DNA of 64,000 nt from Bacteroides acidifaciens (GTDB lineage Bacteria > Bacteroidota > Bacteroidia > Bacteroidales > Bacteroidaceae), in assembly GCF_024623065.1 (NCBI RefSeq), contig NZ_JANJZR010000010.1:1-64000 (forward strand), given 5' to 3'. Shown here in pieces: positions 3,791 through 55,565 of the stretch (positions are counted from its first letter, which is position 1; the number at the start of each line of letters is the position of its first letter). Under the pieces are notes generated by a model. That model had not been told where the DNA came from. It did no database searches and saw only the letters and a list, made by a program, of their open reading frames with translations. The translations under genes and the position numbers were made by a program.

Positions 3791-3798
3791 TATATTTG
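3791..3798 (+). promoter_or_regulatory. -7 box of structured RNA copy A
   Basis: TATATTTG lies 4 nt before the first helix. The same box-to-helix spacing occurs at copy B. Confidence 0.7.
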
Positions 3799-3802
3799 CA
3801 AC

Positions 3803-4045
3803 GTTGTCACAAGTAGTTGTGCAACTTTACATATAATTAATAGATGAAAGTGTTTTGCTTTTATCCTTATTCGGGAAATCTGGTAAATTTCAAAAGGAAC
3901 AGGGATAACAATAACACTCGTCACTTGTATTCCATTATGCGCTGTCATGTGCATATCTATACAAGTGTGGGGTATTGTTTATTTGTTCCTTAGGTTTACC
4001 AGAGCCTCCCGATAGATAAACAGATGACTCCACACTTTCTTTTTT
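3803..4045 (+). ncRNA. Structured RNA, copy A (6S-like shape)
   Basis: This is a non-coding unit of about 243 nt. A 5' hairpin (3803-3825) is followed by a long rod closed by GAAAGTGT (3846) with ACACTTTC (4032), and ends in TTCTTTTTT. Inner helices pair CGGGA (3872) with TCCCG, CTGGTAAA (3880) with TTTACCAG, AAGGAACA (3894) with TGTTCCTT, and CACTTGT (3922) with ACAAGTG. A large internal bubble holds the conserved GTGTGGGGTATTG. Copy B keeps these helices with compensatory changes. The rod with a central bubble resembles 6S RNA. Rfam's Bacteroidales-1 and 6S models are the first to test. The assignment is inferred. Confidence 0.75.
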
Positions 4046-4090
4046 ATGTATAACCTCATTTTAGGGAGTCGAAATGATATTATAAATAGG

Positions 4091-4270
4091 ATGTTTATGG
4101 AAAAAAAATCGGCAATTCCCAAACCAGAAATTGGAGTTAGGATTCTTCTTTCTCGAAAAATTGGTGTAAAAAAACATAATGAAGACTTTTTAATTCTAAC
4201 AGCGCTATTCTGTTTATTCATGTTATGTTGGATATTTGCGTTTTTAAATTTTATAGGAATAGATGTTTAA
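4091..4270 (+). CDS. Possible small membrane protein
   Basis: The ORF track starts at 4046, inside the tail of RNA copy A, so I prefer ATG 4091 (59 residues). The C-terminal half has one strong hydrophobic segment (ILTALFCLFMLCWIFAFLNF), which suggests a single-pass protein with a basic cytoplasmic N-terminus. No family is recognised. Its stop overlaps the start of the zinc-ribbon gene, which supports co-translation. Without that overlap I would not call it. Confidence 0.4.
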   Translation: MFMEKKSAIPKPEIGVRILLSRKIGVKKHNEDFLILTALFCLFMLCWIFAFLNFIGIDV

Positions 4271-4478
4271 TAATATAAACTTTGATTATATGGAAAACAA
4301 TAATGAAATGAAAAAGATTGATTCTTCAATGGTTGAATGTCCCTATTGCAAGAATGTGATAGAAGCTCCTGATAAACCGGACGTCATATTCAAATGTCCC
4401 AAATGCCATAAAGAACTCATTACTTACGATAAAAGGAAAGAATCTGACATATTATCAAAAGAGCAGAACGCATACTGA
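4263..4478 (+). CDS. Small zinc-ribbon protein
   Basis: This 71-residue protein contains CPYCKN followed by CPKCHK 19 residues later, a four-cysteine zinc ribbon of the kind used for nucleic-acid or protein contacts. The rest is short and polar. ATG 4263 is preceded by AGGA at good spacing and overlaps the upstream ORF by 8 bp. ATG 4290 is the alternative start. There is no further domain to suggest a specific role. Confidence 0.6.
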   Translation: MFNNINFDYMENNNEMKKIDSSMVECPYCKNVIEAPDKPDVIFKCPKCHKELITYDKRKESDILSKEQNAY

Positions 4479-27824: not shown

Positions 27825-27890
27825 ATATACAAATAAAAAAAAGCTGGTACAAACTGTATCAGCTCAAAATTACTTACTTTATCTTTTTCG

Positions 27891-27965
27891 TCGGGGTAGC
27901 GGGATTCGAACCCACGACCCCCTGCTCCCAAAGCAGGTGCGCTAACCGGACTGCGCTACACCCCG
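27891..27965 (-). tRNA. tRNA-Pro (TGG)
   Basis: The minus strand folds as a cloverleaf with a CGGGGTG/TACCCCG acceptor and discriminator A. The anticodon loop is TTTGGGA with anticodon TGG and the T-loop is GGTTCGAATCC. CCA is not encoded. It is nearly identical to the second copy, 36 bp upstream on the same strand. Confidence 0.95.
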
Positions 27966-28001
27966 AAAAACTTTTAACTTAATAACCCTCTTTCTTTGTA
28001 G

Positions 28002-28076
28002 TCGGGGTAGCGGGATTCGAACCCACGACCCCCTGCTCCCAAAGCAGGTGCGCTAACCGGACTGCGCTACACCCCG
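28002..28076 (-). tRNA. tRNA-Pro (TGG), second copy
   Basis: It has the same sequence and fold as the neighbouring copy and is transcribed first of the pair, from a -7 box 36 bp upstream. Confidence 0.95.
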
Positions 28077-44388: not shown

Positions 44389-45018
44389 CTACAAGAAGGT
44401 ATCTTTTGCTATATTTCCTATAGTATTAGTTGTCACAACATCAAATGTTGCACTTATAATACCACCTATGAAAGGAACAGTCTTACCTAAATTAACAACT
44501 CCCTTTTGTCCAAACTTAGTAAGTAGTTTGAATCCAACAGCTTGATTTATCTTTTTCAAGACTTCACCTGATATTTTCTTTATTCCTTGTATCGCTAATT
44601 TGCTACCAAGAGTAACTCCAAAATCTTTTGCTACTTCAGCAGTAGAAGTTGCTGCTATACATGAATAAACAAGAGTTCTTACACGGTCATCTTTTACATC
44701 ATACCCACCCATAATCGCTATGGCGGCAACCATACGAACTTGGACATAAAGAACACTAGTTATATTAGCAGGGAGGGTAAGCGGTAGTGTTAAAAGTCCG
44801 CCTACCCCTGTAATAAATCCACTTGTGCCTGCTTTTGTATTTTGCCATCTAATTAGAGAGTCCACTTTATCTACCAATAAACCCTCTTTCTTTAAATAAT
44901 CATTTGCCATGTCTTGTGCAGAATCTAATCCTGAAATCCCATTGACAGCTTTATCATATGCCCAATCAAGTGATTTTAAAATGACTTCCTGACTTAAAGA
45001 AGTAAATTCATTTTCCAT
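44389..45018 (-). CDS. EcsC family protein
   Basis: This 209-residue protein matches the EcsC family: an amphipathic N-terminal helix region, a glycine-rich hydrophobic core (GFITGVGGLLTLPLTLPANITSVLYVQVRM), and a second hydrophobic hairpin near the C-terminus (TVPFIGGIISATFDVV). The family is membrane-associated, and its biochemical role is unknown. It has a long upstream region with unusual pairing potential and an AT-rich hairpin (CATCATT/AATGATG) just before the start. Confidence 0.82.
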   Translation of the reverse strand: MENEFTSLSQEVILKSLDWAYDKAVNGISGLDSAQDMANDYLKKEGLLVDKVDSLIRWQNTKAGTSGFITGVGGLLTLPLTLPANITSVLYVQVRMVAAIAIMGGYDVKDDRVRTLVYSCIAATSTAEVAKDFGVTLGSKLAIQGIKKISGEVLKKINQAVGFKLLTKFGQKGVVNLGKTVPFIGGIISATFDVVTTNTIGNIAKDTFL

Positions 45019-45340
45019 AATACATCATTATAAAATGATGCCTATAAGTCTCCAAATTCAGCAATGATTATTAATCTATTGAATACAAGAAAGGCGTGAG
45101 ACTTGTCTGCCAGTTCATCGAAACTGAGGCATCGCCAAACGCCTTTCTAGTATGAACGAGAAGAAACAATACTCTCACGCCATTTTGACATATGGATACA
45201 GCATAGGCTGTACGAATATATACAAAACAGAATGAGCGTCATATTGCCTCTGTCCACTAGAATAAAATTTGGCGAATTTCAGTTTCGGGACAAAGCAAAA
45301 ACGCTTTCTTATGTCTGCTAAAGCACAAATTGTGTCTTAA
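45019..45340 (-). promoter_or_regulatory. Long leader of ecsC with alternative helices
   Basis: No gene is seen here. Reading the minus strand from the box at 45347, GGCGTGAGA (45181-45173) is complementary to TCTCACGCC (45101-45093), while AGAAAGGCGT (45148-45139) is complementary to ACGCCTTTCT (45098-45089). The two targets overlap, so only one helix can form at a time. A smaller CAGTT/AACTG hairpin lies within. Confidence 0.5.
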
Positions 45341-45510: not shown

Positions 45511-45751
45511 AAAAAAGAAAGTGTGGAGTTATTAGTCTATCTATACAGGAGGTTCTGGTAAACCCAAGACATAAATAAACAATACCCCACACTCATAAAG
45601 CGTATGTAACAAAAACACACATTGCGATACAAGTGACGAGTGCTATTGCCATCCTTATGTCTTTTGAAATTTACCAGATTTCCTGTATAAGGATAAAAGC
45701 TAAACACTTTCATCAATCAATATAATGTTGAGCAACTTACGCCACTACAAC
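45511..45751 (-). ncRNA. Structured RNA, copy B (6S-like shape)
   Basis: This is a second version of copy A, on the opposite strand 41 kb away and about 241 nt long. It keeps the 5' hairpin (GTTG-AGTGGC with GTTGCT-CAAC), the closing GAAAGTGT/ACACTTTC helix, the invariant CTGGTAAA/TTTACCAG helix and the final T-run. It changes other helices on both sides: ACAGG/CCTGT replaces CGGGA/TCCCG, and AAGACATAA/TTATGTCTT replaces AAGGAACA/TGTTCCTT. The bubble words CACTCGTCACTTGTAT and GTGTGGGGTATTGTTTAT are unchanged. Confidence 0.78.
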
Positions 45752-45755
45752 GCTG

Positions 45756-55206: not shown

Positions 55207-55386
55207 TCAACGCCCAAGCCTCACCTTAAAAAGCGAAGGTTCAGATATCAATAGCATGGATTATGAATATAGATGAGCCACTCCAATTTTATGTTTAAAT
55301 TTTCGGGCTGCCCCCAATTCGTTGTCGGACTGCCCCTATACACCTATATAACAAAAAAAGAGATAACTTTAGCCATCTCCTTTTTG

Positions 55387-55459
55387 TACACCCTCAGGGA
55401 CTCGAACCCTGGACCCACTGATTAAGAGTCAGTTGCTCTACCAACTGAGCTAAGAGTGC
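55387..55459 (-). tRNA. tRNA-Lys (CTT)
   Basis: The minus strand folds as a cloverleaf starting GCACTCTTAGCTCAG. The anticodon stem is CTGA/TCAG around CTCTTAA, giving anticodon CTT. The T-loop is GGTTCGAGTCC. CCA is not encoded. Confidence 0.95.
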
Positions 55460-55492
55460 AACATTAAATTTGTGTTGCAACTTCGGAATTAG

Positions 55493-55565
55493 TACACCCT
55501 CAGGGACTCGAACCCTGGACCCACTGATTAAGAGTCAGTTGCTCTACCAACTGAGCTAAGAGTGC
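55493..55565 (-). tRNA. tRNA-Lys (CTT), second copy
   Basis: It is identical in sequence to the neighbouring copy, 33 bp apart, and is the first of the pair to be transcribed. Confidence 0.95.

Follow-up and report, generated by a model that had tools for sequence, protein, structure and literature searches.

What is a rod-shaped RNA that occurs more than once on a single contig of Bacteroides acidifaciens, and what does it do? The window, a stretch of 64,000 nucleotides of contig NZ_JANJZR010000010.1, was described in a first-pass annotation as holding two copies of a structured RNA of about 240 nt, copy A at 3803-4045 (+) and copy B at about 45516-45755 (-), which were tentatively linked to 6S RNA or to the Bacteroidales-1 motif of Rfam. 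On the strength of sequence comparisons, we propose that the element is a cis-acting 5′ mRNA leader that probably works as a conditional transcription terminator, or attenuator.

The fold is the firmest part of the case. Copy A reaches -86.3 kcal/mol compared with -48.0 for shuffles (z = -8.2, with none of 200 shuffles as good), and copy B reaches -81.6 kcal/mol (z = -7.4); together with covariation across 66 homologues, the z-score of copy A bears out a structured RNA at 3803-4045 (+). The element does lie in that interval, but its true span is longer, as a promoter -7 box, TATATTTG (TAnnTTTG), stands upstream at 3791-3798 (+) and a GGAGTC box downstream at 4065-4070 (+), the whole leader element being a folded RNA of about 300 nt. 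It carries a 5′ hairpin (3803-3825, +), seen in the fold and altered on both sides in copy B, for which family-wide pairing evidence is weak (58/95 in the swap test defined below). The rod core follows at 3846-4039 (+), scoring 173.5 bits with our covariance model R1, and runs from the 5′ strand of the basal helix P1 (3846-3853) to its 3′ strand (4032-4039). Going inward, helix H1 joins CGGGA (3872-3876) to TCCCG (4007-4011), H2 joins CTGGTAAA (3880-3887) to TTTACCAG (3995-4002), and H3 joins AAGGAACA (3894-3901) to TGTTCCTT (3984-3991), all on the plus strand. The two bubble words said to be fixed are each found exactly at two places in the window, in copies A and B: CACTCGTCACTTGTAT at 3915-3930 (+) and 45627-45642 (-), and GTGTGGGGTATTG at 3965-3977 (+) and 45580-45592 (-). 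Part of the former, 3922-3930, pairs with 3959-3967 to form an apical hairpin.

Three helices had been reported to change on both sides between copies A and B with pairing retained, and these changes are present in the sequence as described. Two copies by themselves would be weak proof of a selected fold; 66 homologues, however, show the same helices, keeping them through compensatory changes at a level well beyond that of shuffled and slid controls. In the 66 homologues, the rod helices reach 90.6% pairing, compared with 75.5% after shuffling and at most 50% in the slid controls, and the same 66 sequences hold 273 double-change cells as against 91 when shuffled. RNAalifold returned a weak consensus on the raw alignment because H1 and H3 slide, and we therefore relied on a named structure and on alignment-free swap tests, which ask whether a member's strand pairs better with its own partner strand or with those of other members. 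The own partner won in 75/77 cases for H1, 87/89 for H3, 28/30 for H2 and 80/97 for the apical hairpin, while two control pairings gave no excess. Kinship inflates shuffle tests, yet descent alone hardly accounts for the several kinds of pair seen at single positions of both helices; in H1, four to six pair types occur at each position. A hairpin within the 5′ half (Y1/Y2) was also considered as a strongly selected alternative and was set aside, its covariation being weak and its Y1 swap test reaching 52/92.

Copies A and B included, the covariance model places about 10 loci in this genome, several of them divergent, a count that leaves out opposite-strand echoes and at least one doubtful match (C190). 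The rod core of copy B spans 45517-45711 (-), with its -7 box at 45763-45756 and a downstream GGAGTT at 45489-45484. Copy C, found by whole-genome search, lies on another contig (G000:C129:97216-97404). Copy D, which the first-pass annotation did not include, was spotted by eye and then borne out by the covariance model (E = 2e-19, 88.1 bits); it adjoins copy B in tandem at 45089-45308 (-) as a divergent member and has a promoter box of its own at 45354-45347, followed by the downstream sequence GGAGACTT at 45053-45046 (-). Elsewhere in the window, tRNA-Pro(TGG) and tRNA-Lys(CTT) genes occur as tandem duplicates (27890-28076 and 55386-55565, -).

The surroundings of these copies point to a leader. 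A TAnnTTTG box precedes 113/116 loci, compared with 9.5 in shuffles; this promoter box, first seen in the two copies, is of the Bacteroidetes type. At the other end, a start codon on the same strand lies 40-59 nt past the U-tract in 71/123 loci. Promoter and gene thus usually flank the element in one direction, although copy B is followed by only a short ORF and then by copy D, with no evident gene. Copy A precedes an ORF for a 57-aa membrane-like protein (4097-4270, +, within the frame 4046-4270), homologues of which lie 3′ of other copies, and a second ORF of 71 aa with zinc-ribbon-like CxxC motifs (4263-4478, +); this two-gene neighbourhood recurs at other loci. An EcsC-family gene (44389-45018, -) lies 3′ of copy D. 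By a crude signature, signal peptides are found in 68/97 downstream products as opposed to 170/571 ORFs in the neighbourhood (p = 1e-13). In other respects the products are unrelated; they include lipoproteins, BACON, BspA-type LRR, DUF4988 and lipocalin-like proteins, outer-membrane barrels and restriction-enzyme-like proteins, with divergent members standing before RibD_C/DHFR-like, EcsC and other genes.

Attenuation through a leader peptide was considered and rejected: the frame that starts at the conserved NTG AAA GTG runs for a median of 8 codons before it closes, and divergent members lack it. In 111/122 cases, AAAGTG is preceded by ATG, GTG or TTG. An open frame at 3844-3993 (+), starting at the conserved ATGAAAGTG, is alike in copies A, B and L004 and is not conserved in the family.

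The 3′ half of each copy can adopt a second fold, a single long hairpin whose basal stem, GUGUGGGG/CUCCACAC, ends right before the U-tract. Isolated 3′ halves of copies A, B and D each form one such hairpin reaching up to the U-tract, with energies of -32 to -35 kcal/mol. Its basal stem X1 joins, in copy A, GTGTGGGG (3965-3972, +), which lies inside the fixed word at 3965-3977, to CTCCACAC (4028-4035, +), a strand that is also used by P1 and by the downstream complement. The adjoining stem X2, GTTTAT (3977-3982, +) with ATAAAC (4016-4021, +), has a few compensatory pairs and a swap test of 58/91. X1 forms in all 121 isolated 3′ halves (121/121). Since it is almost invariant in the common subfamily, it is uninformative there; divergent members alter it on both sides (GCGUGAGA/UCUCACGC in copy D, 45181-45173 with 45101-45093; AACGUGGG/CCCACGUU in L170). 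Among 35 members, X1 is 98.9% paired and carries 24 double changes compared with 5.0 in shuffles (0/500), and its swap test gives 35/37.

G-U pairs are common in X1, and their U lies on the 3′ strand, a bias that fits an RNA of this strand and not DNA or an antisense transcript. This bears directly on the suggestion that the element acts at the DNA level, as an inverted repeat, mobile unit or recombination site, a reading encouraged by its near-palindromic, multicopy and patchy occurrence before accessory genes. Frequent G-U pairs with a strand bias, and the arrangement of promoter box, U-tract and gene in one direction, make it highly improbable.

Behind the basal stem, copy A carries UUUCUUUUUU, with the U-tract TTTCTTTTTT at 4036-4045 (+), and other members are U-rich at this place. 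A U-rich tract stands behind the stem in 29/30 mostly divergent members as against 5/120 background stretches, a figure inflated by the 3′-end finder, which demanded some U. The terminator proposed in the first-pass annotation thus stands as a terminator-like end, but a consensus terminator scan, limited to loops of 3-8 nt, found nothing here because the hairpin encloses a long inner domain.

Past the U-tract, a small hairpin presents a loop of the GGAGNN type that is complementary to NNCUCC in the terminator 3′ strand; in copy A, GGAGTC (4065-4070) faces GACTCC at 4026-4031. The loop covaries with its target (GACUCC/GGAGUC in A, AACUCC/GGAGUU in B, AAGUCUC/GAGACUU in D and GUUCCC/GGGAAC in L137), swap tests give 78/99 and 27/37, and a possible stem flanks the box in 110/127 cases. 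Because the downstream loop and P1 jointly occupy the terminator 3′ strand, rod and loop make up one state and the 3′ hairpin the other. In several divergent members, a GCUCACG-like strand in the apical hairpin of the rod directly sequesters the terminator 5′ strand. The sequences therefore show two mutually exclusive and independently conserved folds, one of them a hairpin before a U-tract.

The same features weigh on two other accounts of the element. One would have it a family of stand-alone, trans-acting small RNAs, each with its own promoter and terminator-like end and placed before genes by chance, for which the lack of an evident gene after copy B and the known multicopy small RNA families of Bacteroides (FopS, PMC11697453) could speak; neither the fixed distance to the start codon nor a covarying complement past the U-tract would be expected of an RNA that ends at that tract, and we consider this unlikely. 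The other, also unlikely though somewhat less so, keeps the leader and moves its action after transcription, with the rod controlling translation, mRNA stability or RNase III processing and the U-tract serving mainly as a partner in P1. It accommodates the leader position and the covarying rod, which is the more stable fold, as well as the pairing of UUUC with GAAA in P1 and the members without a clean U-run, the tract being weak or interrupted in L183, L190 and L009. Against it, the terminator stem covaries independently of P1 and abuts the U-rich tract, and the GGAG box lies about 30 nt from the start codon of copy A, too far for a Shine-Dalgarno sequence.

6S RNA is a trans-acting product of one or two genes per genome. 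A long rod with a conserved internal bubble led the first-pass annotation to read the element as 6S-like, an open-promoter mimic to which RNA polymerase would bind, and this shape is a true likeness. The 6S model RF00013, however, matched nothing anywhere in the genome at E ≤ 1, although its controls in six genomes (E. coli, B. subtilis and others) were all recovered. The 6S-Flavo model RF01685 likewise had no match in the genome, with control genomes also yielding no true positive for it. The Bacteroidales-1 model RF01693 belongs to a structured Bacteroidales RNA of comparable length but misses the element; here it is single-copy, matching once at another locus (G000:C168:989-1166, 183 bits), and Rfam describes this family with the words "6S-Bacteroidales RNA suggested". 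The sequence neighbouring that locus (L013) looks like ribosomal protein L20. No family of Rfam 15 matches any member tested. In B. thetaiotaomicron, a 6S RNA with pRNAs has been detected experimentally (PMC7366714). The copy number of our element also departs from that of 6S, with some 10 members here and 3-27 R1 matches per genome in 13 other genomes, which were picked as known carriers and include a few opposite-strand echoes. Many copies placed as leaders before unrelated genes, a competing terminator fold and a covarying downstream loop are all unlike 6S, and we give the 6S-like reading very little credence.

In the attenuator model that we favor, the rod and the 3′ hairpin share strands and so exclude each other. 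The rod state would be the antiterminator: the terminator 5′ strand would be tied up in the upper rod, and the 3′ strand by P1 and the downstream loop, leaving polymerase free to continue into the gene. Formation of the 3′ hairpin would instead stop transcription, with an RNA of about 240 nt as the product. The rod is approximately 16 kcal/mol more stable than two separate halves, and switching thus needs co-transcriptional timing or a bound factor; a ligand, a protein, polymerase speed or an antisense RNA may tip the balance. The most conserved and partly unpaired middle of the rod (CACUCAUCAC / GUGUGGGGUAUUGUUUAUUUG) would be the foremost candidate site for binding of a signal. The weakest link of the model is the inferred termination of transcription by the 3′ hairpin.

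The family reaches well beyond this genome. A pattern scan of one genome per species returned at least 117 stretches, mostly, among the matches listed, from Alistipes, Rikenella, Tidjanibacter and other Rikenellaceae, and it also matched Bacteroides (B. xylanisolvens XB1A, B. heparinolyticus and B. muris), Barnesiella, Muribaculaceae and Paludibacter. The covariance model R1, built on 66 sequences, has at least one match in 36/119 Bacteroidales genomes from an order-wide sample under strict filters, and weaker matches in 9 genomes of the same class outside the order; three of these class-level loci, from other families, were inspected and keep the same parts. The exact motif is far rarer than model matches (4/295 genomes). 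Because the rod is nearly symmetric, the model can match on both strands; even copy A receives 34 bits on the opposite, minus strand, and strand calls of weak matches were not trusted. One locus, L119, appears to be a truncated member with only the 3′ part.

Mobile origins were considered as well. The exact pattern matched only 2 viral contigs, and a phage origin was rejected, the best phage match being an unannotated contig with the same bacterial neighbourhood. A 5.2-kb "Bacteriophage sp." record (L199, MT838511.1, UNVERIFIED) holds the surroundings of copy A, among them an ORF resembling a WYL-type regulator, and looks like a piece of bacterial DNA filed in the wrong place. Viral contigs searched with the DHFR-like protein gave no match. 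A plasmid origin was rejected too, with 4 plasmid records found in a search by the DHFR-linked subtype only. This subtype, a leader before RibD_C/DHFR-like genes, occurs at L180 (B. xylanisolvens XB1A, 4.93 Mb), L181, L182, L187 and L171; the L180 leader lies near a match to the rteR sRNA (CTnDOT-type) and BTnc005, which suggests carriage on conjugative elements.

RNA-based control in gut Bacteroidales is poorly mapped. If the attenuator model is true, a leader present up to about 27 times per genome would place cell-surface and accessory functions together in one regulon under RNA control, spanning lipoproteins, BspA-type leucine-rich-repeat, BACON and outer-membrane proteins as well as restriction-enzyme and DHFR-like genes. 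It is possible, though we would not call it probable, that the family is a class of regulatory RNA in Bacteroidia that has gone unrecognised and answers to a signal of its own, be it a metabolite, a protein or RNA polymerase. Such a class would control in concert the read-through into many accessory and surface-protein genes of a genome that are otherwise unrelated. As the switch parts are common to all copies, one copy would be enough to seek the ligand, protein or polymerase factor.

Several known systems resemble the element in part. With the paralogous small RNAs FopS and GibS of Bacteroides it shares a multicopy family and a terminator-hairpin end (PMC11697453), but FopS has a single-stranded 5′ stretch and one terminator hairpin and acts in trans. 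The candidates of Fremin and Bhatt 2021 (PMC8040213) are, according to the main text, palindromic, terminator-like and from Bacteroidetes; the Alistipes candidate named there sits upstream of L20, unlike our element. A literature search of openly readable articles, limited to their main texts (also for PMC8040213), returned no description of the leader. In comparison with 6S RNA (RF00013, RF01685), the element differs by its many leader copies and competing terminator. Closest in kind are attenuators and riboswitch expression platforms, such as trp/TRAP leaders and ANTAR-controlled leaders, which likewise combine mutually exclusive folds with common strands, a terminator hairpin before a U-tract and a place before genes. 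No sequence relation between these and the element was found, and it differs from them by a rod of about 200 nt as the presumed antiterminator, an additional complement past the terminator and very diverse downstream genes. Thus, as far as these tools reach, the family, its rod of about 200 nt with a three-way competition for one strand, its copy number and its unrelated downstream genes are undescribed, while the attenuator leader as a type is known.
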